A DNA stretch of 47,013 nucleotides, from contig CAILVI010000573.1 in NCBI GenBank assembly GCA_903837595.1, positions 1-47,013 on the forward strand, given 5' to 3'. Source of the DNA: an uncultured Thiodictyon sp. GTDB taxonomy: Bacteria > Pseudomonadota > Gammaproteobacteria > Chromatiales > Chromatiaceae. The notes beneath the pieces are model-generated. The model searched no databases, was not told where the DNA came from, and saw nothing but the letters and a program-made list of their open reading frames with translations. Position 1 is the first letter of the stretch; every line of letters starts with the position of its first letter. The position numbers and the translations under genes were made by a program. This document shows positions 4,408 through 25,262 of this stretch, one piece after another.

Positions 4408-4908
4408 TCAAAAGATCGCCGCCGCCATGGCCGCCGCCCGGCCGACCAGCGTCACGACCTTCTCCAGCGCATCGGAACTCTCACCGGCACCCTGGATCAG
4501 CTCCATGGCACTTTTGATCCTGGACTTGATCAGCCCGCCCTTGGGCTCAGTCTTGGCCGCCTGCTCCTCCACGATCCGAAAATCCCCCTCAATCGCCTGG
4601 GCCGATGCCGGGTCCAGGCCCGCCTGGGGCAGCAGCGCGCGGACCTCGGCCAGGAGTCGCACCAGGTCGGCGGCGGACGCCCCCTCCTGGGTCTGATAGA
4701 GGGTCTTGAACTGGTCGCGGCCGACGAAGTCGCCACCCCCGGTGGTCACGCTGCCGCCGATATAGACACCGCCGCCCGTGCGGACCACGGTACCGCTGCC
4801 GGACTTAGGGGCGGGCTCCGGCTTTTCGGAAAAGCGAATCCTGCCCGCGATCGAGGCGGTCTTGCGGGCGTTCGGATCATCTTCGGAAGGTAAGCGGAAT
4901 GTCGACAT
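4408..4908 (-). CDS. Small protein with GGGDFVGRD motif and helical domain
   Basis: A 166-aa protein of unknown function. After a charged, Pro-rich leader it has a glycine-rich beta-type motif (TGGGVYIGGSVTTGGGDFVG, then RD) at about residues 45-65, then a helical domain (AADLVRLLAEVRALLPQAGL to the C terminus) ending in an Ala-rich amphipathic helix (GRAAAMAAAIF). The same GGGDFVGRDQ motif opens both NACHT proteins upstream on this strand, which ties the genes into one system. I start at ATG 4908, with GAGGAG ten bases upstream, not at the in-frame ATG at 4926. It lies 33 bp after the TPR gene and is probably co-transcribed with it. An adaptor or regulator role is inference; I see no catalytic motif. 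Confidence 0.75.
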   Translation of the reverse strand: MSTFRLPSEDDPNARKTASIAGRIRFSEKPEPAPKSGSGTVVRTGGGVYIGGSVTTGGGDFVGRDQFKTLYQTQEGASAADLVRLLAEVRALLPQAGLDPASAQAIEGDFRIVEEQAAKTEPKGGLIKSRIKSAMELIQGAGESSDALEKVVTLVGRAAAMAAAIF

Positions 4909-4941
4909 CTGGGTCTTGCTCCTCAAGGAAACGACAGAAAT

Positions 4942-7209: not shown

Positions 7210-7301
7210 AGTCCAAAACCCCCATGTCGTTGAGGCCGCACCGTTGATCTTACCTTATCGCAGCTGTGCAGGCCTGACGAACAACGCAAACCAGACTGGA
7301 A

Positions 7302-7327
7302 CAGAATCCAGACGTTCAGAATCCAGA
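7302..7327. repeat. Short direct repeat at the 3' end of the NACHT-FGE gene
   Basis: CAGAATCCAGA occurs at 7302-7312 and again at 7317-7327. The second copy overlaps the stop codon and last codons of the NACHT-FGE gene. It lies at the outer edge of the block shared with the second NACHT-FGE gene, and may mark the boundary of a past duplication or retrohoming event. Confidence 0.55.
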
Positions 7328-7453
7328 ATCCTCCAGGGACAACACCACGCGGAAACCGACAAACGCGTCGAAATCATCGGCGCGGGCCCACTGGCGGGAC
7401 GCACAGCGCGCGACCCTCGAGTCATCGAGCCAGGACCCGCCGCGCACCACGCG
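7316..7453 (-). repeat. Variable-region-like 3' block, copy A
   Basis: The last 138 bp of this NACHT-FGE gene align without gaps to 10443-10580 of the second one. The first 24 bp (RVVRGGSW) are identical, the last 45 bp differ at 4 positions, and the 69-bp core (7361-7429) differs at 25. Flanking sequence is unrelated. The layout matches the variable region of a diversity-generating retroelement target, although no template repeat or reverse transcriptase is in the window. Confidence 0.55.
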
Positions 7454-10183
7454 GCGTCCCCCTACCCCCGGATCGTCTTGCCCATACCTGACACGAACAG
7501 GATAATCGCGATAGCGGCTCACGCACCACTCCCGGCAATTGCCCGCCAGGTCCTGGACACCTGCCGGCGTGGCCCCTTGCGGATAGGCGCCCACCGGGGT
7601 ACTACACAGCACCTGGCCCTCCCTGGTATTGGCCCGATCCGGGTCCCAGCGGTTACCCCAGGGAAAGCGGCGCCCGGAGCCCAGGCGGGCGGCGCGCTCC
7701 CACTCATCCTCGGTCGGCAGCCGTACCAGCGCGCCCATAGGCAACGGCCGACTGGCCTGCTCGGCGGCGACATGCCAGCGGTTGTTGAGCCAGCAGCAAT
7801 AGGCCCGCGCCTCGAACCAGGTCACACCCACCACCGGTTGGGCCGGATTGGAAAGACGCTCTTCAGTCCAATAGGCGGAGCTATCCATCGGTCGATCGGT
7901 ATATCGGTATCGCGGCGAGATCCGGAATCTCGACGTATCCATCATGCGCAGCGCTGCATCTTGCTCCCACGCGTACTCGCTACGACGCCTAGTGTCCCAG
8001 AGGGATGGATCGGCCATACGCTTCCAAAACGCGTTCAACCCGTCGATCTTGTAGCCAGGCTCGAGTTGCCCCCGCCGCCAGAGCTGGGCCTCAGGACTAT
8101 CCCACCAGTAGTCATGCTTATAACCGCCGTCGGCGATGAAACAGCCATACTCGGCGTTGGTCACCGGAAAGCGCCCGATGGCGAAGGCCGGCACTTGCAC
8201 CCGATGTCGGGGCCGTTCGTCACCAGCCGGATAGCCGTGACGAACCAAGCGCCACACCGCCCACCGGGATGACCCCATCCGCACCACCCCCGCCGGGACC
8301 TCGACCAAGGGCGGCAGCAGGACCCGGGCACCCATCACCTCGATCGCCTCAAAGCGCGGGTCGCCCAGCCGCCCGAGCGCCTCCCCGGCGGCGATGCGGC
8401 CGCGTACATCCACGCGGGGGTTGCCCAGGTCCGCCAGCAGCGCCGCCTGGGTAAGCGCCAACTCGTCCGCCGCCGCGACCACCCCCGGCTCGGCCAGGCA
8501 GCGCGCGGCCAGCACCGGGTTACACGAGCGCACCGCCGCGATCAGTGCCGCCAGTGCCGCCGGGTCCCGGGCGAGACCGACGGCCAGCAAGGTCGGTTCC
8601 TCCCAGCCGGTGGTAGGCGGCGGCGGCAAGGGTTTGCCCTGGCGCAGTCGTCCCGGGTCCGGCATCGCGGACTTGAGCCGCGGGGAACGCCAGCGGTCGC
8701 TGAGATCCAGGCCGCCGCGCTGGGCGTCGAGTAGGGCAAGCGCGGCAAAGAACTCCTGTATCTGGTGGTGATAGAAGCGCACTAGCCCGCCCGGCACGCC
8801 CGTCTGTGGGTCCGCCTCGGTGTCCAGCAGGGTGGCGGCGAGCCCCAGGCGCAGGATGGACTTGGGGTCCAGGTCCACCGGGCCGTCCGGGGTCTCCACC
8901 CGCGTGGGCAGGCGTTTGAGGACCTCCGCACGCGTAAGGCGTGTGCCCTCCCCCAAGCGCTGCATCCCCTCGGCCAGGGCCGCCAGCGCGGCGATCACCG
9001 CCGCCTCACCCGGCCAGTCGGCGTGGTTCTGCCGCCGCTCCCGGGCGAGCAGGTGTCCGACAAAACCGCTGAAGATGCCGGCGCGCCCACTCGGCCACGC
9101 CTTACCCTGGTCCACCAGCCAGCACAGGATCCAGAGATAGAAGGGGTTGCGCACCAACTCCAGCAGTGGACTGCCGGCGAGCCGCTGCCAGGCGTCAGCG
9201 GCCAGCTTAGTGCGCTGCACATAACGGCCGAGAAAGGCGCGCACCCGCTCATCGTCAAGCCGCTCGATCTCCACCTGGGGCAAGCCCAGCGGCTCACTAT
9301 AGTCGCGCCCGCGGCAGGTGAAGACGAAGCGATTGCCCGGCCACTCGGCGACGAAGCGTTGCCAGGCACCGACCCGGGCGCGGTAGTCGGCGGCATCGCG
9401 GAAGGGCATCTCGTTGAGTGCATCCACCAGCAGCAGGAGTCCACCCGCGCGCAGGCGCGCATCCAGATCATCGGTGCCCACCCGATGGCGCCAGACCGCC
9501 GTGACAAAGGCGTGGGGCGAGGGATAGTCCCGATCATCGGCCAGGGCCAGCAGAAGCGGCAAGCGGCCCGCCCCCGCCTGGAGGCGCTCGCGCGCCCCGT
9601 CGATCAGCAGCCGGTGCAGGGAAGTGGTCTTGCCGGAACCCGGCTCGCCGAGCAGCACCCAAGCGTCGTGGCGTTCGAGCGCCGCCGTGATGTCGGGGAG
9701 CAGCACCCGCCGAACCTGACGTTGGGCACCCTCGCCGACGATCTCCAGGGCGGTCAGGTCGGGGACGATGTCGGCGAAGCCGGCCGGTACCTGGGGCTCC
9801 GCCAAGACCCCGGCCAGGGGGACATAGCGCCGCACCCAGCGCCCATAGCGGGGATGGACCAGCAGCGCGGCCAGATAGGCGTCGGCGTCGCCGCGCCGGG
9901 CGGCGGCCAGCAGCAGGGCCTCGGCGGCCGGTTTGGAGAGCAGCAGGGTATCGCCCGCGGTGCCGGTGAGACGCAGCAGGTCCGCCGGCTCGGGTTCAGC
10001 GGACAGGACGGTATCGCGCCGCGCCAGCAGGTCGCGCAAGACCGGCAGGACGGATTCGAGGCGCTCGGCGCTCAGGTCGCCGATGAGGGTCAGGTTGATC
10101 TGGTCGCGGCCGACGAAATCGCGACCGGCCGCCGCATCGCCGTCGATGTACGCCCCGCCGCCGGTATCCGCACTGTTGATCAT
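7316..10183 (-). CDS. NACHT-type STAND NTPase with C-terminal FGE/C-lectin domain
   Basis: A 955-aa multidomain protein. The N terminus has a glycine-rich motif (DTGGGAYIDGD...GRDFVGRDQ, residues about 6-30). A NACHT ATPase follows with Walker A LLGEPGSGKTT near residue 180 and Walker B LLLLVDALNEMP near 250, then helical STAND arms. From about 620 there is an FGE-sulfatase/C-type-lectin fold (EVPAGVVRMGS, FPVTNAEYGCF, RLPTEDEWERAARL, RRVVRGGSW, VGFRVVLSL). STAND NTPases of this kind sense a ligand and oligomerise; the FGE fold is a likely recognition surface, not necessarily an enzyme. I start at ATG 10183 (MINSADTGGG): the frame stays open to 10531, but those residues come from REP palindromes. 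The last 46 codons match the neighbouring NACHT gene except for a hypervariable core. Confidence 0.9.
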   Translation of the reverse strand: MINSADTGGGAYIDGDAAAGRDFVGRDQINLTLIGDLSAERLESVLPVLRDLLARRDTVLSAEPEPADLLRLTGTAGDTLLLSKPAAEALLLAAARRGDADAYLAALLVHPRYGRWVRRYVPLAGVLAEPQVPAGFADIVPDLTALEIVGEGAQRQVRRVLLPDITAALERHDAWVLLGEPGSGKTTSLHRLLIDGARERLQAGAGRLPLLLALADDRDYPSPHAFVTAVWRHRVGTDDLDARLRAGGLLLLVDALNEMPFRDAADYRARVGAWQRFVAEWPGNRFVFTCRGRDYSEPLGLPQVEIERLDDERVRAFLGRYVQRTKLAADAWQRLAGSPLLELVRNPFYLWILCWLVDQGKAWPSGRAGIFSGFVGHLLARERRQNHADWPGEAAVIAALAALAEGMQRLGEGTRLTRAEVLKRLPTRVETPDGPVDLDPKSILRLGLAATLLDTEADPQTGVPGGLVRFYHHQIQEFFAALALLDAQRGGLDLSDRWRSPRLKSAMPDPGRLRQGKPLPPPPTTGWEEPTLLAVGLARDPAALAALIAAVRSCNPVLAARCLAEPGVVAAADELALTQAALLADLGNPRVDVRGRIAAGEALGRLGDPRFEAIEVMGARVLLPPLVEVPAGVVRMGSSRWAVWRLVRHGYPAGDERPRHRVQVPAFAIGRFPVTNAEYGCFIADGGYKHDYWWDSPEAQLWRRGQLEPGYKIDGLNAFWKRMADPSLWDTRRRSEYAWEQDAALRMMDTSRFRISPRYRYTDRPMDSSAYWTEERLSNPAQPVVGVTWFEARAYCCWLNNRWHVAAEQASRPLPMGALVRLPTEDEWERAARLGSGRRFPWGNRWDPDRANTREGQVLCSTPVGAYPQGATPAGVQDLAGNCREWCVSRYRDYPVRVRYGQDDPGVGGRRVVRGGSWLDDSRVARCASRQWARADDFDAFVGFRVVLSLEDSGF

Positions 10184-10442
10184 GCCTGAGTCCCTATCTG
10201 GAAATGCCGATAAGAAGCGCTGCCAAGTGTACCCGAGCAGGCGCTTATGGCGCCGGGTTGTCTGCCAGGCCGCTGGTTCCCGCGCGCCGCGCGGGAACCC
10301 CGTCGGGGCGCGCCGCGCCCCGCCCACGCACCGCGGCGCGGTGCGGCTGCATTCCCGCGCGGCGCGCGGGAACGAGAAAACTCCGGGCGCGGAACGCCAG
10401 ATACAGGCGTAACACCGCGCAGCGGTGTTACGAGATAGGGGA
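10184..10442. repeat. Cluster of three REP palindromes between the NACHT genes
   Basis: Three strong palindromes fill this gap: 10275-10299 (GGTTCCCGCGCG and its complement), 10349-10376 (TTCCCGCGC stem) and 10407-10434 (GTAACACCGC stem). The last two share the head GCRT and tail ACGAG with copies at 13560, 13994 and 27468. Open reading frames through this gap are artefacts of the repeats. A promoter for the downstream NACHT gene could lie here but none is evident. Confidence 0.8.
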
Positions 10443-10580
10443 TCAGAACCCAGAATCCGCCAGGGACAACACCAACCGGAAACCGACATCCCTATTGAAG
10501 TAGTCGGGGACGCCCCGGACGCGATACGCACAGCGCGCGTTCCTCGAATGATCGTCCCAGGACCCGCCGCGCACCACGCG
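10443..10580 (-). repeat. Variable-region-like 3' block, copy B
   Basis: Partner of 7316-7453: same length, no gaps, identical first 24 bp, variable 69-bp core at 10488-10556. Nine of the 25 core differences involve an adenine in one copy, as adenine mutagenesis would give, but several codon third positions also differ, which a single shared template would not explain. Confidence 0.55.
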
Positions 10581-13172
10581 GAGGTCGGGGCCGGTCAGGG
10601 ACTCCCGACCGTCGTGCGGGTCATAGGGGTAACGGAAATCGGGCCTCAGGATGTCGCTACCCCAGCGGGAGCGCGTCCACTCCCAGACGTTGCCGGTCAG
10701 GTCGAGTGCACCGCAAGGGCTGGCCCCGGCCGGGAAGCAGCCGACGGGACTGGTGGTCTGGAGGCCCGCGGCCTCGGTGTTGGCCCGATCGTCCAGCCAG
10801 GTATCGCCCCAGGACCAGCGCCGGGCCACGGTGCCGCGGGCGGCCTTTTCCCATTCGGCCTCGGAGGGCAGTCGCACCCGAACCCCCGGCTGCTTGGCCC
10901 GCAGTTGGGACTCGAGCCAGCGACAGTAGGCCAGTGCCTCGTGCCAGGAGATGCCGACCACCGGGCGATTGGCCCCGTTCCAGGGGGACTCGTCCCACCA
11001 GTAGGGCCGATCACGGCGCCCCTGCGGGCGCTGTGCCAGCCAGTCTGCGTATGGCTTCCTGATATCCTCGTCCGTGATTGCGGACAGGTCGAACGTGGCA
11101 CCCTGGCGCCAAGCCCAACCCTCGGGCGTCCACCAGCGTTCCTGGTCATAGCCGCCGGATACCATGAAGGGCCGGTACTGGTCGTTGGTGACCGGATAGC
11201 GGGCGATATGAAAGGTAGGCAGTTCCACCCGGTGCGCCGGCCGCTCGTCGTCGTCGGCCTCGGTGCCGTCCGCCGCACTGCCCAGGGTAAATGGGCCGGC
11301 CGGCACCTCGCACCAGTCGATGGCGGGCAGACAGGCACCCGTGGCCGCGGTGCGGGTGCCGACGCCGGGTCGCGGGTCGCCAAGCAACCCGAGCAGGTCG
11401 CCGGCCTCCAGCCGCTCCTTGGGCGGTAGTGCACCGCGCCCAAGCAGGTCCACCAGCCAGCGGCGGATGCGCCTCAGTGGCGCCTCAAAGTGCTCCTGGC
11501 CAGCGGCCGTGCTGGGGAACCCCAAATCCAGCAGGGCCTTGGCCGCGAGCACCGCGGCCTGCCAGTGGCGCTCACCGATCCCGTCGGTATCCGCGGGGCT
11601 GGCGGGGACCAGGGTGTTGACCAGGTTCACCGCGTCAGCCAATCCGCCCTGACGCTTCTTGCCGACGCCCAGCAGATAGACCTCACGCCACCAGGTGGGG
11701 TCGGCCCAGACCCGGCGGCGCAGCTCGGCACCGAAGTCGGGGGCGGTATTGGCCAGGTGACAGGCCGCGAGATATTCCTGAAAGGAGCGGTGCGGGAAGG
11801 CGTAGACGCCCTCCCGGCGGGCGATCAGCAGCCCCGCGCGGGTCTCCAGATACTCCAGCAGGACACCGGGGTTGAGATCCTGCGGACACAGCTGCTCGAA
11901 GGTCGCGATGACCTGGCCGCGGTCGATGTCGGCCGGGGCCTCGTCGCGCCCCGGCAGGACCGCCTGGCCCTCGTGGGTCGCGAAAGCGAGGCGATCGAGT
12001 GCCTGGCGCAGCCGCTGCTCCCCGAGCCCCAGTGCGCGGGCGATGCCGGGCTCGCGCAGGATGGTGCCGTCCGGCGCCGCGACCTCGCGCCCGGTCTGCC
12101 AGCGGGTCAGCAGCAGCTTGACCGATTCCTCGTAGAGGTCGGCCCGGTCGCGCGGGAGCTGGCCCCAACTGCTGTGCAGCGTGGCCATGAGGGTGAGCAG
12201 CAGCGGGCGGGAGGCCAGATCGCCGAGATACGCGCGTTCGTTGATGGCGTCGCGCAGCGCCCGCCCCCGCTGCTGCGCGGTCGGCGCGTCCCAGCCCATG
12301 ACCGGGCGGACCGCCTGGTACCAGTGAGCGATGAAGCCGGCCACTTGCGCGGCGTCGAAGGGGGCCAGGGCCAGCTCGTGGAAACCGGTGAGGTGCCAGC
12401 GCGGGTCCGCATAGGCATAGGGCCGGGCGGTGAGCAGTACCCGGCTGCCCGCGGGCAGGGCGGCGGTTAGGCGTTGCACGGACTCGAGCAGGTGGGCGCG
12501 GCGGGCGCCGGATTCGGGGACCTCGTCCAACCCGTCGAGCAGGACCAGCGCGCCCTGGCCGTGCAGCCGTTCCAACAGGTACGGGAACAGGCGCGCGGCG
12601 GCGCTCTGGCCCAGGCGCTGGACGCAGTCGTCCTCCAGCGCCCGCCAGAGGGTGTCACCCACGGCACCGTTTTCCGGGATGGCGGCGGCCGCCCGGCGCA
12701 GCACCAAGCGTACCGGCAGCAGGGTCCGGAGCGTCGGCGGCAGTGTTGACCGGGTGCCGTCGACCACCGCGCTGGCGAGCCGCCAGGTCAGGTAGTCGAC
12801 AAAGGTGCTCTTGCCGGAGCCGGCATCGCCCACCAGCACCAGGCGCCCGCCCTGCTCGCCGGTGACGGCATCGAGCAGCGCGGTGCGCTCCCCCAGCTCG
12901 GCGCGGGCCAGGCGCAGGCCGTAGCGGCGCTCGTCCTCGCCCTCCTCCCGCGGGACCATGACCACATGCAGGTCCGTATAGACGCTCGGCAGGTCGACCT
13001 CGGTGCGGGCGCCCGGCTGGGCGAAGCGCGGGTCCACCACGCCGAGCGGCAGGCGGCTGCACTCGGCGGCCAGGTCGCGGTAATAGGCGATGAGCAGCTG
13101 TTTCGGCGTGGTATCCGGTGCGTGGATAGTGATCTGGTCGCGGCCGATGAAGTCGCCGCCGCCGGTGTCCAC
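10443..13172 (-). CDS. NACHT-type STAND NTPase with C-terminal FGE domain (5' end frameshifted)
   Basis: At least 909 aa. It opens with DTGGGDFIGRDQ, followed by a linker, Walker A LVGDAGSGKSTF near residue 115, Walker B LVLLDGLDEVPES near 208, the sensor-like LLTARPYAY, helical repeats (FPHRSFQEYLAACHLAN) and from about 615 an FGE/C-lectin fold (WCEVPAGPFTLGS, RYPVTNDQYRPF, RLPSEAEWEKAARG, VVRGGSW, VGFRLVLSL). The coordinates given start at GTG 13172, which lacks a convincing ribosome site. The natural start is probably ATG 13342 (MENGAVTES): its frame encodes a leader ending GHVDTGGGD but is thrown out of frame by a 50-bp tandem duplication at 13152-13251. Removing one copy restores one continuous ORF. 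The gene may be switched off, expressed from GTG, or phase-variable. Confidence 0.85.
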   Translation of the reverse strand: MDTGGGDFIGRDQITIHAPDTTPKQLLIAYYRDLAAECSRLPLGVVDPRFAQPGARTEVDLPSVYTDLHVVMVPREEGEDERRYGLRLARAELGERTALLDAVTGEQGGRLVLVGDAGSGKSTFVDYLTWRLASAVVDGTRSTLPPTLRTLLPVRLVLRRAAAAIPENGAVGDTLWRALEDDCVQRLGQSAAARLFPYLLERLHGQGALVLLDGLDEVPESGARRAHLLESVQRLTAALPAGSRVLLTARPYAYADPRWHLTGFHELALAPFDAAQVAGFIAHWYQAVRPVMGWDAPTAQQRGRALRDAINERAYLGDLASRPLLLTLMATLHSSWGQLPRDRADLYEESVKLLLTRWQTGREVAAPDGTILREPGIARALGLGEQRLRQALDRLAFATHEGQAVLPGRDEAPADIDRGQVIATFEQLCPQDLNPGVLLEYLETRAGLLIARREGVYAFPHRSFQEYLAACHLANTAPDFGAELRRRVWADPTWWREVYLLGVGKKRQGGLADAVNLVNTLVPASPADTDGIGERHWQAAVLAAKALLDLGFPSTAAGQEHFEAPLRRIRRWLVDLLGRGALPPKERLEAGDLLGLLGDPRPGVGTRTAATGACLPAIDWCEVPAGPFTLGSAADGTEADDDERPAHRVELPTFHIARYPVTNDQYRPFMVSGGYDQERWWTPEGWAWRQGATFDLSAITDEDIRKPYADWLAQRPQGRRDRPYWWDESPWNGANRPVVGISWHEALAYCRWLESQLRAKQPGVRVRLPSEAEWEKAARGTVARRWSWGDTWLDDRANTEAAGLQTTSPVGCFPAGASPCGALDLTGNVWEWTRSRWGSDILRPDFRYPYDPHDGRESLTGPDLRVVRGGSWDDHSRNARCAYRVRGVPDYFNRDVGFRLVLSLADSGF

Positions 13173-14096: not shown

Positions 14097-17000
14097 TCAC
14101 ACCGGGCCATCCGCCCCCCGCACCAACGCCAGCATGTCCGCATAACTCAACCGCCCGCCGTCTCCGGTGCCTTCGAGCAGGCCGTCGGCCAGGTCGCGCT
14201 TGGTGGCATGGAGCTTGAGTATCTGCTCCTCAATGGTGTCCTTGGCCACCAGACGATAGACGGTCACCGGGCGCTCCTGACCGATGCGGTGCGCGCGGTC
14301 CGATGCCTGGTCCTCGACCGCCGGGTTCCACCAGGGGTCCATGTGGATGACATAGTCGGCGGCCGTCAGGTTCAGCCCAACCCCGCCGGCGCGCAGGCTG
14401 ATCAGGAACAGGTCGCCCTCCCCCGCTTGGAAGGCGGCGACGGCGGCGCGGCGCTGGGTCTCGGGGGTGGAGCCATCCAGATATTGATAGCGGATGCCGC
14501 GGGCGTCCAGGTGCGCGCGAATCAGCCGCAGGTGATCGACGAACTGGCTGAACACCAATGCCTTGTGCCGGTTCTCCAGCAACTCCTCGACGATCTCGGC
14601 AAAGGTGTCCAGCTTCGCGCTGGGCAGCTCGCTGCCGGGCAGGGCCAGTTGCGGATGGCAGCAGGCGCGGCGCAGACGCATGATCTCGGCCAGCAGTTGC
14701 ATCCGCTGCTGGCCGGGGTTGGTCTCCGGGTTCTCGGCGAGCCGCGCCAGGGCCTGCAGGCGCACGGCCTCATAGAGTGCCTGCTCGCCCTCGCTCAGCT
14801 CGATCTGCAAGGTGATCTCGGTGCGCGGCGGCAGTTCACTCAGGACCTCGCTTTTCAACCGGCGCAGGATGAAGGGGCGCAGCAATTGGCGCAGCCGCGC
14901 CCGGGCGCCCTGGTCCCTGTTCAGCTCGATCGGGTTGGCGAAGCGCCGGTTGAAGGCCTCAAGTGACCCGAGGAGCCCCGGGTTGATGAACTGGAACAGG
15001 TTCCAGATCTCGCCCAGGTGGTTCTCGATCGGGGTGCCGGTGGCGATCATCCGGAAGCCGGCGGAGAGCCGCATGATGGCCTGGGAGCGCTTGGTCAGGG
15101 CGTTCTTGAAGGCCTGGGCCTCGTCGGCGACGATGGTCTCCCACTGCACCCCCGCCAGGCGCTCGGCCTCGGTCTGCAAGAGCCCGTAGCTGCACACAAT
15201 GAGGTCAAAGGGACCGGCATCTTTCAGCACCGCGGCACGATCCCCGGGACCGAAGCGCTGGGGCCGCAGCGTCGGGGCAAAGCGTCGCGCCTCCTCGATC
15301 CAGTTGGCGCAGACCGACATCGGCGCCAGCACCAGGGTCGGGCCTTGGGGCGCGCGCGACAGGATGAGCGCCAGGGCCTGGACGGTCTTACCCAGGCCCA
15401 TGTCGTCGGCCAGACAGGCCCCGGCGCCCCAGAAGGCAAGCCGGGAGAGCCAACGGTAACCCTCCGCCTGGTAGTCGCGCAGTTCCGCCTGGAGGGTCGA
15501 GGGCAGCACCGGCTCCAGGTCGCGCATAGCTGCCAGGCGCCCCAGCAGGGCCTTCCAGACGGGCGCCTTTTCCAACTCCATGCCGTCGACCAGCTCGGCG
15601 ATGACCGGGGCCGCCAAGGGGTGAAAACGCCCGGCGTCGGTGAGGCCGCGCAGGCCGTCGAGCCGTCGCCGCAGGGCGTTGCTCAGGACCAGAAAATCAT
15701 CCTCGCCCAGCCGCACGAAGCGGCCGCGCGACGCCGCCGCCAGCTCCAACAGCTCGCGCATGATGAGCACCCGGCCGTCGGAAAGCCTAAGCCTGCCATC
15801 GACGGCGAGCCAATCCCCCTGCTTCTTCACCGCGACCCGCATCTGGCCTACCTGCGCCTCGGCGCTCAACGCGATGCGCTTGCCCTGCGGCCAATCCAAC
15901 ACCACCGAATCACCCAGCGCATGGACCTGCTCCAACGCGCTCAGGGCCTGCTCCGGGTCGTCCAGGTGCCAGCTCCAGCCGTCGCTGCCGGCCAGCTCCG
16001 GGCAGCGCGTCGGCACCGCCTCGGCGGCGGTCAGTTCAGCCTTCAGGTCGCGGGTGCAGCGCACGGCCCGGCCGGCACGCTCGGTGAACAGGGTCGCGCC
16101 GCCCTGCCCCGGGCGTAGCTCGGGGCCATCCTCGCCGAAGGGGTGCACATGCAGTTCCAGACTCAGGCCGCCGTCGGCGAGGCTCAGGTGCAGGTGCGGG
16201 CGGGGGTCGGCGGGGACCGTCTCGGCATTGCCGGCACCGCCGCCGATATCCGAATGGACCGTCAGCATGGGTGCCACCGCGGTCAGTCCTTCCAGCAACC
16301 GCTCCTCGCCACCCTTGGGGACGAGTAGCCCGGCAGGACCCAGGATGCGGGCAATCTGCCGATGCCGGGCGTCGAACTCGACCAACCGGATGCGCAGCGG
16401 CGTCTCCTCCACCGGCAGGATCGCGCGGTCCTCGGGCGGGAAGGGCTCGATGCTGACCCGGATATCCTTGCGTTGCCGCACCGCGGCCAGGGTCGGGCCG
16501 CTGTGGAGCAATGCCACCGCGCCCTCGGTCGAGAGGCGGAACACCAGCGGGTGGCCAACGGCCGCCAGCAGGGCGCGGTCCTGGTCCATCCGATAGAGGG
16601 TCCGCTCGGCCCCGTGGTACCAACTCTGCTCGCGCTCCTTGACGATACAGGCGAGAATCGCCCGGTCCTGCGGGGTCAGGTAGGGAAAGCTATCGGTCTC
16701 CTCGGCCAGCTTTGCCAACGACACCGGACGGCCCATGCTCCAGCCGCCGCGCTTCATGCGCTTCTGCTCCCGGGGCTCCAGCGTCGCCAGCCCCGCGTAA
16801 AGGGTGAACAACCAGGCCATGCGCTGGTCTGACCCCGCCGCGGCATCGGCGCCGGCTTCCAGTGCGGCCGGCTGGTCGCCGAGCCCCTTGAGGGCCTCCA
16901 GCGCAAGCTCCCAGGCCGGCTTGGGCGTCAGCAGTCCGGTCATCAAAACCAGGCCGGTGGGCGGCTCCCCAAGCGTTGGCAGTTCGCCCTGGAAACCGCC

Positions 17001-18245
17001 GGCGCGCAGCACGGCCACGGCCTCATGCGCATACCAGTCGAATCCGGCCGCGACCGCGGTGCGGGCGCAGGCCGCGAGCGCCTGCTGCGCCTCCGCCGCC
17101 AGGTGCCGCTCGAGCCAGTGCGCCGCCAGGGCCTGAAACAGCAGCGCAAAGGCACCCCGCGCGCCCAGGTCGCGGCGCAGCCAGGCGCTCTCCTCCAGCC
17201 GACGCTGTCCGGCCAGCACCGCGGCCAAGTCGCCGAGCACCCGGTAAGCGTGTGCGACCGGGTCGGAGACACTGGCGCGCAGGCACAGGGCCACCTGCTT
17301 CTGAACCAGGTCGAAGTCGGCCCGCGCGCCCCGTTGCAGCAATGCCATCAGGTACAGCACACCGGGGATACCCGGGGTATAGAGGTTGCGCTTGCGGGTC
17401 AGCTTGCGGGTGACGAGCTCCGCGGCCTCGAAGCATTCGATGGCCTGGGCATAGCCACCTTGCAGGACGCGCCGCCAGCCATTCAGCGTCAGCGCCGCAG
17501 GGTCGCCACATCCGGCCAGCAGGGCTGGCACATCAGTCACACGTCCGCGCAGCAACCGCTGCTCGGCCAGGAACTCGGCGGCATCCGGATGGGCGGCGGC
17601 CAAGGGTGTGAGCAGACGCTCGGCCAGCGCGTAGGTGCTCGGATCGGCCACCAGGTCCAGCGTCCACTCGCGCAGGAGCGGGCACAGCGCCAGAATCTGG
17701 AGCCGGGGCGGGAGAGCCGCCAGCCATACCGAATCCGCCGGACGCAGGCAGACCCGGGCCAGCAGGCCCACCTGGGCATAGCGGACCTGGCTCACCGGGA
17801 CGCCGCCGCCAACCCCGAGCAGTTCCAGTACCCTCCTCTCCTGCCCGCCATAGAGCGCCAGGCGCAACAGCCGCAGGCGCCGACCCTCGCCGGGTTGCTC
17901 CCAACTATGGATCGTCTTGGCCGAGACGACGGACTCCGCCGCTTTGGTGATCGCCGGGAAGGTCCCGTCGGCCACGCTCTCGCGGGTCAGCGGTTCGAGG
18001 AGATCCGGGTGACAGGTCAGGGTGTTCTGGCGCTGCTCGATGAGTCCGTCGGCGAGCAACCGCTCACGCAAGGTTTTGGCCATCAGCCGGCTCAAGGGGG
18101 CGCCAGCCTCATCGCGCCAGCCCAGGGCGTCCAGGACCAATTGCAGGAGGGTCTGAGCAATCGGCTCACAGACCACCGACAGCACGCGCAGGATGCGCCG
18201 CTCGTCGGTGTTCAAGGCCGCGTAGCGTGCTTGCAGATCAGCCAC
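14097..18245 (-). CDS. Large SNF2-family DEAD/DEAH helicase
   Basis: A 1382-aa SWI2/SNF2 ATPase, expected to translocate on double-stranded DNA. The C-terminal engine is complete: LRDYQAEGYRWL, motif I DDMGLGKTV near residue 945, motif II as ADEAQAFKN near 1040, TGTPIEN, a helicase-C domain with YQYLDGSTP, and motif VI ASDRAHRIGQ near 1318. The first ~900 residues are not a standard domain; the start looks like a winged helix (LNTDERRILRVLSVV) and the rest is mixed helical repeats and beta structure. The start is GTG 18245, overlapping the upstream gene's stop by 8 bp, so translation is coupled. The large size and paired partner recall helicases of defence or genome-maintenance systems, but no nuclease or methylase of such a system is adjacent. 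Confidence 0.9.
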   Translation of the reverse strand: MADLQARYAALNTDERRILRVLSVVCEPIAQTLLQLVLDALGWRDEAGAPLSRLMAKTLRERLLADGLIEQRQNTLTCHPDLLEPLTRESVADGTFPAITKAAESVVSAKTIHSWEQPGEGRRLRLLRLALYGGQERRVLELLGVGGGVPVSQVRYAQVGLLARVCLRPADSVWLAALPPRLQILALCPLLREWTLDLVADPSTYALAERLLTPLAAAHPDAAEFLAEQRLLRGRVTDVPALLAGCGDPAALTLNGWRRVLQGGYAQAIECFEAAELVTRKLTRKRNLYTPGIPGVLYLMALLQRGARADFDLVQKQVALCLRASVSDPVAHAYRVLGDLAAVLAGQRRLEESAWLRRDLGARGAFALLFQALAAHWLERHLAAEAQQALAACARTAVAAGFDWYAHEAVAVLRAGGFQGELPTLGEPPTGLVLMTGLLTPKPAWELALEALKGLGDQPAALEAGADAAAGSDQRMAWLFTLYAGLATLEPREQKRMKRGGWSMGRPVSLAKLAEETDSFPYLTPQDRAILACIVKEREQSWYHGAERTLYRMDQDRALLAAVGHPLVFRLSTEGAVALLHSGPTLAAVRQRKDIRVSIEPFPPEDRAILPVEETPLRIRLVEFDARHRQIARILGPAGLLVPKGGEERLLEGLTAVAPMLTVHSDIGGGAGNAETVPADPRPHLHLSLADGGLSLELHVHPFGEDGPELRPGQGGATLFTERAGRAVRCTRDLKAELTAAEAVPTRCPELAGSDGWSWHLDDPEQALSALEQVHALGDSVVLDWPQGKRIALSAEAQVGQMRVAVKKQGDWLAVDGRLRLSDGRVLIMRELLELAAASRGRFVRLGEDDFLVLSNALRRRLDGLRGLTDAGRFHPLAAPVIAELVDGMELEKAPVWKALLGRLAAMRDLEPVLPSTLQAELRDYQAEGYRWLSRLAFWGAGACLADDMGLGKTVQALALILSRAPQGPTLVLAPMSVCANWIEEARRFAPTLRPQRFGPGDRAAVLKDAGPFDLIVCSYGLLQTEAERLAGVQWETIVADEAQAFKNALTKRSQAIMRLSAGFRMIATGTPIENHLGEIWNLFQFINPGLLGSLEAFNRRFANPIELNRDQGARARLRQLLRPFILRRLKSEVLSELPPRTEITLQIELSEGEQALYEAVRLQALARLAENPETNPGQQRMQLLAEIMRLRRACCHPQLALPGSELPSAKLDTFAEIVEELLENRHKALVFSQFVDHLRLIRAHLDARGIRYQYLDGSTPETQRRAAVAAFQAGEGDLFLISLRAGGVGLNLTAADYVIHMDPWWNPAVEDQASDRAHRIGQERPVTVYRLVAKDTIEEQILKLHATKRDLADGLLEGTGDGGRLSYADMLALVRGADGPV

Positions 18246-23591: not shown

Positions 23592-25262
23592 ATGGCCGCA
23601 GACCCAGCCGCACCGCCACCGCACGACGGAGCGCAACGCAAGGCGCGCGGGGCCTATTTCACCCCGACGGATGTCGCCCGGTTCATCGCCGTCTGGGCCA
23701 TCCGTGGCGTCGCCGACCGGGTGCTGGAACCCTCCTGCGGCGAGGCCGCCTTTCTCACCGAGGCGGCGGCGCGGCTGCGCGAACTGGGTCTGGACGATGC
23801 CGGCTGGCCGACGGCCCTGCACGGACACGAGATCCACGGTGAAACCGCGGCGGTAGCGCGGCAACTGCTAGCCGAGCTGGGGGCCGCGGCCACCATCGCC
23901 GAGGGCGATTTCTTCGTCCGGGAGGCGCGGCCCGAGTTCGACGCGGTGATCGGCAACCCACCCTATGTCCGCTATCAGCACTTCAGCGGGGAGGCCCGCG
24001 CCCACGCACTCGCCGCGGCGCTGCGCCAAGGGGTGCGGCTCAGCGGGCTGGCCAGCTCCTGGGCCGCCTTCGTGGTGCATGCCGGCGCCTTCCTGAAACC
24101 GGAGGGGCGCCTGGGCCTGGTGCTGCCGGCCGAGCTGCTGTCCGTCAAATACGCGACCGAGATCCGCCACTTCCTGCTGCGGCGCTTCGCCCGGGTCCGG
24201 CTCGTACTGTTCGACCACCTGGTCTTCCCGGGGGTGCTGGAGGACGTGGTCCTGCTGCTCGCCCAGGGGTCCGGCGGGACCGATCATTTCGAGGTCTACC
24301 AGGCCGCCCGGCCACAGGACCTGATGCAGTCGCTGGCGCAGGACTGGACCGGCTTCCACCCCCGCCCCGACACCAAGTGGACCTCGGCCCTGTTGCCGGC
24401 CGAGGTGCTGGCGCTCTATGCCGCGGTGAGCGAGGGCGACGGCTTTGAGCCCATGACCCGGTGGGGCGGGAGCTTCCTGGGCTCGGTGACCGGCAACAAC
24501 GGCTTCTTTGCACTCTCACCGGCGCGCGCCGCGGCCCTGCGGCTGCCCGCCCACGAGCTGCTCGCCATCTCACCGCCGGGCGGCCGGCACCTGATGGGCC
24601 TGCAATTCGACCGCGCGGACTGGGAGCGGCTGGGTCAGGCCGGGGCCGCCACCCTGCTCTTTGCCCCCGGCGAGACCCCGACCGCAGCGGCGCGGCGCTA
24701 TATCGCCCAGGGCAAGCGCGAGGGCGTGGGCGCCGCCTACAAGTGTCGGGTGCGCAGCCCCTGGTGGCGCGTGCCACTGGTGGACCGACCGGACCTCTTC
24801 TGCACCTATATGAACCATCGGCGACCGCGCCTGCTCGCCAACCAGGCCGATGCACTGGTCCTGAACTCCATCTACGGGGTGCGGCTCACGCAGGCGCGCC
24901 GCGACCTGGGGCGCCGGCTGCTGCCGCTGGCGGCGCTCAACAGCCTGTCCCTGCTCGGTGCCGAGATCGGCGGGCGGGTCTACGCGGGCGGCATGCTCAA
25001 GCACGAGCCGCGCGAGATCGACGCCCTGCCGGTCCCCTCCGCCGCCCTGGTGGCAGAACTGGCCGCGGAACTGGAGGCGCTGTACCCCGAGGTCGCGCGA
25101 CTCCTGGGCCAGGGGGATGAGACCCGCGCCACCGCGCGCGTCGACGACCTGATCCTGCGCCACGGACTGGGGCTCGCCCGCGAGGCGCTCGACACCCTGC
25201 GGGCGGCCCGCGAGTACCTGCTGGACCGCCGTCTGACTCGGGGGCGCGGCACCCATGGCTGA
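23592..25262 (+). CDS. Type II N6-adenine DNA methyltransferase
   Basis: A 556-aa modification enzyme of the PaeR7I/Eco57I-like gamma class, transferring a methyl group from S-adenosylmethionine to adenine in its target site. Seen directly: GAYFTPTDVARF near residues 20-31, SAM-binding motif I VLEPSCGEAAFL at 44-55, the acidic motif in LHGHEIHGE, and catalytic motif IV NPPY at 122-125. The C-terminal half should hold target recognition (VGAAYKCRVRSPWW, YMNHRRPRLLANQA, LNSLSLLGAEIGGRVYAGG). AAGGAG lies seven bases before ATG 23592, and the gene begins 21 bp after nrdB. Its stop codon overlaps the start of the endonuclease gene by 8 bp (ATGGCTGA). Recognition sequence cannot be predicted here. 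Confidence 0.92.
   Translation: MAADPAAPPPHDGAQRKARGAYFTPTDVARFIAVWAIRGVADRVLEPSCGEAAFLTEAAARLRELGLDDAGWPTALHGHEIHGETAAVARQLLAELGAAATIAEGDFFVREARPEFDAVIGNPPYVRYQHFSGEARAHALAAALRQGVRLSGLASSWAAFVVHAGAFLKPEGRLGLVLPAELLSVKYATEIRHFLLRRFARVRLVLFDHLVFPGVLEDVVLLLAQGSGGTDHFEVYQAARPQDLMQSLAQDWTGFHPRPDTKWTSALLPAEVLALYAAVSEGDGFEPMTRWGGSFLGSVTGNNGFFALSPARAAALRLPAHELLAISPPGGRHLMGLQFDRADWERLGQAGAATLLFAPGETPTAAARRYIAQGKREGVGAAYKCRVRSPWWRVPLVDRPDLFCTYMNHRRPRLLANQADALVLNSIYGVRLTQARRDLGRRLLPLAALNSLSLLGAEIGGRVYAGGMLKHEPREIDALPVPSAALVAELAAELEALYPEVARLLGQGDETRATARVDDLILRHGLGLAREALDTLRAAREYLLDRRLTRGRGTHG

Follow-up and report, generated by a model that had tools for sequence, protein, structure and literature searches.

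The 47,013-nt contig CAILVI010000573.1 (C573; hereafter the window), from the 7.79-Mb draft genome of an uncultured Thiodictyon sp. in 576 contigs, carries two neighbouring genes for NACHT proteins with a C-terminal FGE/C-type lectin (C-lectin) domain, both of which end in a 3′ block with a hypervariable core. We consider it probable that these twin blocks are orphaned or degenerate targets (variable regions, VRs) of a diversity-generating retroelement (DGR), located on two sensor genes that resemble NOD-like receptors (NLRs). The blocks carry the target-type boundary of a DGR class that occurs in other genomes with a reverse transcriptase (RT) and template, and we detected neither a cognate template nor a cognate RT in the draft assembly. 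Present-day activity of the window targets is unproven and, on this assembly, unlikely.

Two NACHT-FGE genes end in a paired variable block

The genes and the parts of their 3′ blocks are as follows, where IMH stands for initiation of mutagenic homing.

7316..10183, minus strand: target gene A, NACHT and C-terminal FGE/C-lectin domain, 955 aa from the ATG at 10183
10443..13172, minus strand: target gene B, NACHT and C-terminal FGE/C-lectin domain, 909 aa, GTG start as listed
7337..7453, minus strand: VR-like block A
10464..10580, minus strand: VR-like block B, from RVVRGGSW to the TTGTCC boundary
7361..7429, minus strand: hypervariable core A, 69 nt
10488..10556, minus strand: hypervariable core B, 69 nt
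7337..7357, minus strand: boundary sequence A (IMH-like), followed by CTG (target type)
10464..10484, minus strand: boundary sequence B (IMH-like), followed by CTG (target type)

Both proteins exceeded the Pfam cut-offs for NACHT and FGE-sulfatase, in agreement with the initial annotation, which had described twin NACHT-FGE genes; the open frame of gene A extends to 10531. Each protein joins a NACHT domain to a C-terminal sensor domain, as do NLR-like sensors of the signal transduction ATPases with numerous domains (STAND) type, and both genes combine a C-type lectin/FGE fold with a VR at the 3′ end, as is typical of DGR targets. Protein B also gave a phmmer match (1.1e-7) to the solved structure of TvpA (2y3c), which we take to be a DGR target. 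No PADLOC family matched protein A or B at E 0.001, and NCBIfam EruA matched the NACHT proteins only at a score far under its cut-off.

Realignment of the last 138 nt of the two genes (minus strand, 7316-7453 and 10443-10580) reproduced the gap-free alignment and the distribution of differences first noted: none in the first 24 nt, 25 in the 69-nt core and four in the last 45 nt, or 29 overall. Six of the 25 core differences fall at third codon positions, as had been counted before, and five of these six are C/T changes; an A is involved in eight core differences, one fewer than the nine given by the initial annotation. Away from the block, identity between the two genes is 40-67% per 100 alignment columns, apart from one gap-rich interval at 73%, and it rises from 56% in the penultimate 100 columns to 75% in the last 100.

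We compared the block ends with 30 FGE loci of the same genome, out of 49 matches. At least 22 of the first 24 nt matched in eight of the 30 loci, two of them the window genes. The identity of this segment is unremarkable because the 24-mer encodes RVVRGGSW, an FGE motif common in the genome, and we therefore dropped it as a sign of homogenisation. Among the same loci, a match of at least 30/45 to the last 45 nt was confined to the two window genes, and scanning the entire assembly with a boundary pattern (up to three mismatches) turned up only the window pair and a single three-mismatch site on contig C417.

The blocks carry the boundary of a DGR class found in other genomes

A DNA search with block B across 194 genomes of the family returned full or nearly full matches in a genome of the same genus (G035; two), in G032 (one) and in a genome of another genus (G065; four). 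An order-wide search of 210 genomes (E up to 1e-6) gave matches in seven, each already in the family set. The G065 locus looks like a DGR in working order: a NACHT-FGE target, an RT, bAvd and a template lie consecutively, with a further NACHT-type reading frame beyond, and Pfam confirmed the RT and bAvd. Between template 1 and its VR there are 16 differences in 114 nt, every one at a template adenine, and templates 1 and 2 differ by five synonymous C/T changes at third positions.

An exact scan of a species-genome collection for the boundary yielded 22 stretches, which we sorted by reading their translations into 12 class templates or targets, three other FGE-like genes and seven unrelated sequences. 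The 12 class stretches come from Gammaproteobacteria, Betaproteobacteria including Hydrogenophaga, an unassigned proteobacterium and Anaerolineae; a template together with a target was found in another genus of the family, in Betaproteobacteria and in Anaerolineae. RT motifs are visible in five stretches (L126, L128, L131, L132 and L133), the RT confirmed by Pfam being that of G065 only. Across six template-target pairs of the class, the template has an A at 94 of 102 differences.

Templates and targets of the class differ in how they continue after TTGTCC: all seven templates read AT[AC], and all eight targets that share a contig with a template read CT[GA]. This comparison covered 14 loci chosen from the 22, the window and L052, and took copies with at least 96 nt before the boundary, which leaves out one L131 target, for example; the second L121 copy sits in a frame containing stops. 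Both window copies continue with CTG and not AT[AC], and so have the target-type boundary of a known class. Moreover, the A-rich codons of class templates in relatives align with the variable codons of the window, and of 23 non-A first and second core positions each window VR shares 19 with the consensus of the class templates, compared with 12-15 in four other FGE genes of the genome. The initial proposal that the blocks are DGR targets is thus supported as a statement of ancestry, by the same-class DGRs in relatives and by this codon alignment.

The gene pair is also present in G035, its order unchanged and a YhgA-like transposase gene lying between the two genes, and the 16 kb read around the pair contained no RT motif or template. 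Between gene B and its G035 orthologue, the gene body shows 72, 61 and 231 differences at codon positions 1, 2 and 3, and the last 138 nt show 11, 10 and 14, which amounts to an excess at positions 1 and 2. A second DGR of G035, on its contig C287, has a broken RT and was ruled out as the server of the G035 pair, its template being different. G032 (two contigs) has kept one class VR; its four RT matches appear by eye, from their motifs, to be Cas1-adjacent, group II or of another type. More DGR loci with template-VR pairs were seen at L090-L094, L096 and L100-L103 (G168, G107 and G156; same genus or RT-search finds).

No cognate template or RT was detected in the same genome

Two BLAST searches and a boundary-pattern search allowing up to three mismatches found no third block copy and no template in the draft assembly. 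The leftover BLAST matches consisted of the FGE motif alone or, in one case, of a weak full-length FGE match. Since the same kind of search reached the G065 template across genera (4e-11), a cognate template would be expected to be visible here. A plasmid search gave 23 records with short matches, none spanning 80% of the query.

Searching the assembly with RVT_1 gave five matches. The RT on C119 clears the group II intron cut-off, C174 and C405 each hold a group II-type fragment at a contig end, and the RT on C522 (L002) adjoins a Cas1 gene and, by eye, an apparent CRISPR array. The fifth, on C120 (L015, 1-6316), belongs to a DGR with an RT, a template and three VRs, in which 13/13, 13/13 and 17/17 template-VR differences over 95 nt lie at a template A; one VR has a single non-A difference just past the 95 nt. 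The G065 RT as query retrieved three matches, on C120, C119 and C522, all of them among the RVT_1 genes. No cognate RT of the window class was therefore present among the RVT_1 and G065-RT matches in the draft assembly, although RVT_1 missed the broken RT on G035 C287, so that an RVT_1 search alone does not prove absence. The initial annotation had called for a search of this kind and had named as evidence against its reading a complete genome without RT or template, together with related strains that show the same core or ordinary drift; the first half of this outcome was found, in that the draft assembly holds no RT with a matching template.

Separately, another FGE gene of this genome (L164, on contig C366) resembles a VR of the G035:C287 DGR class, with a similar tail. 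It differs from the G035:C287 template at 25 positions, 14 at A and 11 not, and is possibly a second orphan.

The two VRs are not recent copies of one template

Beyond the missing template and RT, several results weigh against reading the blocks as DGR targets. Ten VR pairs with a common template (from C120, L171, L090, L101, L103 and L130/L132) together show 117 differences, 83 of them with an A and three at third positions. The window pair is set apart from these template-sharing pairs by both its third-position share (6/25) and its low A content (8/25). Its nearest full template, template repeat 1 (TR1) of G065, has 17 and 15 non-A mismatches of 96 to the two window VRs, 14 and 12 of them at third positions. 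The comparison of window gene A with its G032 orthologue (winA-G032) at A sites was not significant (p 0.11). The window VR differences do concentrate at class-template A sites (16/23, against 3/23 other first and second positions; p 1.1e-4), but this concentration is unspecific, as comparing four other FGE genes of the genome with one another (six pairs) gave p 0.0005-0.18. We therefore no longer regard A-site localisation as decisive proof of a DGR, with the reservation that these four controls are imperfect because C413 and C474 carry a similar downstream tract and may be old targets themselves.

Two arguments of the initial annotation against a simple DGR origin can be judged from these numbers. 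The one from third positions is valid: 6/25 against 3/117 means that the window VRs are not two recent copies of one template. The G035 pair, with 32 differences, 12 with an A and 11 at third positions, likewise does not consist of two recent copies of one template. The third-position data are compatible with two templates and equally with drift once the machinery had been lost. The argument from the A count carries little weight in principle, since A may be lost from both of two randomised targets; the difference it pointed to is nevertheless real in degree (83/117 versus 8/25).

Alternative explanations

Some of these features would also follow from gene conversion with diversifying selection, in which the last ~140 bp were copied between FGE genes and the ligand-facing core was subsequently changed, with no DGR in the lineage. 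The identity of A and B climbs only at the 3′ end, the same sites vary in other FGE genes, and the third-position differences resemble ordinary drift. The similarity also runs ~20 nt beyond the DGR boundary, which retrohoming alone would not explain. Gene conversion, however, leaves unexplained why the block carries the class boundary and the target-type CTG seen in DGR targets of other phyla, and why the window VRs match class templates at non-A positions. On balance, we find this explanation improbable.

A smaller chance still attaches to a DGR that acts in trans and continues to rewrite the VRs, its cognate template and RT being located in DNA that was not assembled, on an extrachromosomal element or elsewhere in the cell population. 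The genome is a fragmented draft, a decayed RT could escape an RVT_1 search, as the broken G035 RT did, and the available text of PMC10907252 reports trans action as well as strains with intact beside degenerate parts. An RT gene, not being repetitive itself, should however be assembled, and the RVT_1 and DGR-RT searches gave none of this class; the third-position differences also oppose a recent rewriting of both VRs from one template.

The C120 DGR of the same genome, despite its RT, its three VRs and the A-directed differences between them and its template, can practically be dismissed as the server of the window genes, as 29 and 25 of 96 positions are non-A mismatches between this template and the window VRs, and the C120 boundary has LGLRCAR in place of VGFRVVLS. 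As C120 has the only DGR RT found, and this RT has its own template, the earlier suggestion that the window targets are served by a distant RT was not supported in this assembly.

A scenario for orphaned DGR targets

If the blocks are orphaned DGR targets, a DGR RT would once have made a cDNA of a template repeat in which the adenine positions were randomised, and this cDNA would have taken the place of the VR. The ligand-binding loops would thereby have become diverse while the rest of the protein stayed fixed. The layout would be NLR-like, with a NACHT switch and a C-terminal FGE/C-lectin sensor whose variable loop, at the gene end, sets specificity. The two VRs would have been written last from different templates or from templates that have since diverged. 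The lineage may then have lost the machinery, perhaps with a MITE-like (miniature inverted-repeat transposable element) insertion between the targets; alternatively, the machinery may persist only in unassembled DNA or in other strains. By analogy with the proteins treated in PMC10907252, the NACHT proteins are probably still sensors, with frozen specificities.

Two repeats lie between the targets.

10273..10376, no strand assigned: MITE-like inverted repeat, with similar copies elsewhere in the genome
10408..10432, no strand assigned: 11-bp hairpin within a short dispersed repeat beside VR B

Copies similar to the MITE-like repeat were found on C375, C430, C482, C408, C104 and C392, and the shorter repeat recurs at many places in the genome; these copy counts are lower bounds, with 40 of 131 candidates scored. 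The MITE-like repeat occupies the position at which G065 has its RT, bAvd and template. MITE-like arrays that replace DGR parts are reported in the available text of PMC10907252, and an insertion of this kind has perhaps replaced DGR parts in the window too.

A T-rich repeated tract follows many DGR targets

Both window VRs are followed by a repetitive tract.

7291..7336, minus strand: ATTCTGR-like repeated tract after VR A, across the stop codon, lag-7 self-match 0.42
10440..10463, minus strand: ATTCTGR-like repeated tract after VR B, to and past the stop, lag-7 self-match 0.43 over 60 nt

Class targets have ATTCTGR-like units ~7 bp apart downstream, spanning the stop codon, whereas class templates have none. 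More generally, it is DGR targets and not templates that often precede a T-rich ~7-bp tract (L053, L054, L090, L128-L130, L132, L171 and others), the unit sequence varying by DGR class; in C120-type VRs (L015, L101, L184 and L188), no such tract was seen by eye. Over 60 nt, the lag-7 self-match was 0.43 for 33 targets, 0.28 for 15 templates and 0.29 for 269 control ends of open reading frames (ORFs) (p 7.7e-6 and 1.8e-12), and 7 was the best of lags 4-12 in 22/33 targets, 3/15 templates and 29/269 control ORF ends. The 33 targets include the discovery sequences, and the measure was picked after the tract had been seen. For the 18 targets outside the window class the mean was 0.41 (p 1e-6). All p-values for the tract overstate the significance because the targets are related.

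Previously unseen flanks gave 0.36 for 11 targets and 0.21 for nine templates (p 0.0008; targets versus controls, p 0.008). We repeated the test without L178, which has masked letters in its flank, and without one doubtful minus-strand L188 pair, and obtained 0.38 for nine targets, 0.20 for seven templates (p 0.0005) and 0.29 for 189 gene-like ends (p 0.0065). In this reduced set, only four of nine targets reach 0.40; lag 8, at 0.40, is as strong as lag 7, at 0.38, and the latter comes out best in two of nine. A repetitive T-rich tract thus replicates and a strict 7-bp period does not, so that replication on newly fetched loci was only partial. Pooled counts, from which near-identical or short sequences were excluded, place 23/41 targets, 0/22 templates and 11/266 ORF ends at a self-match of at least 0.40, a value also reached by 7/189 gene-like ends and 0/21 T-rich ends.

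Hairpins after the VR proved weak as a common signal of targets, with stems of at least 9 bp in only 9/41 targets (1/22 templates, 17/266 control ends). A link to the TAACTGA heptamers of Beggiatoaceae was likewise set aside, the main text of PMC4679880 having no DGR, FGE, RT or lectin terms. Literature searches at the level of listings found no report of a heptamer, tandem-repeat, hairpin or direct-repeat tract tied to DGRs. We propose only tentatively, and regard as rather unlikely, that the tract is a cis signal for retrohoming, which would make orphaned targets such as the window pair and other FGE genes of the genome recognisable without a template.

Relation to known systems

The closest parallels are in the available text of PMC10907252. 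Twin NACHT-CLec (C-type lectin) targets are described there as the usual layout in clade 5D, and NACHT proteins of this layout as proposed antigen sensors, with experiment still pending. Like the window, DGR 3 of Thiohalocapsa PB-PSB1 and other clade-5D DGRs have twin NACHT-CLec/FGE targets with a 3′ VR, and degenerate loci without RT or template, as well as MITE-like repeats, are described in the same source. Orphaned or degenerate DGR targets are therefore already known as a kind. The window differs in that its genome yielded neither a cognate RT nor a cognate template. The G065 DGR shares with the window its VR class, boundary and NACHT-FGE target type; it differs in having RT, bAvd and template, the last with the non-A mismatches to the window VRs given above.

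Cyanobacterial remote variable proteins and their homologues (PMC7517822) are also CLec genes far from a DGR with a VR-like 3′ end, but are tied to a DGR of the same genome, whereas the DGR of the window genome has another template. The BPP-1 target site, with its IMH and hairpin (PMC3240598), resembles the window in having a feature just 3′ of the VR, which in the window is a T-rich repeated tract. Our literature search found no report combining Thiodictyon with a diversity-generating retroelement.

Neighbouring genes in the window

A further gene of the window shares a motif with the NACHT proteins.

4408..4926, minus strand: small protein, candidate partner, with a TGGG-YIGG-GDFVGRD motif as in the N-termini of the NACHT proteins

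The motif is common to both NACHT N-termini (shorter in B) and this small protein, and is found as well at the C-terminus of a caspase-domain protein beside a DGR of G035 (L089 958-2157). At the N-terminus, it may serve in effector recruitment. Elsewhere in the window, 14097-18245 encodes an SNF2 helicase for which PADLOC gives a strong DpdE match (5.2e-191) but which scores under the NCBIfam cut-offs, and 23592-25262 is an N6 DNA methylase-type gene.

Implications

The downstream tract, if functional, would allow cellular DGR targets to be found without a template and would help to show how they are recognised. The authors of PMC8144416, in the text available, note that their own approach would not detect remote targets. 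The window pair suggests that NLR-like sensors can outlive their diversifying retroelement, and surveys that require a nearby RT would therefore miss VR-bearing genes of this kind.

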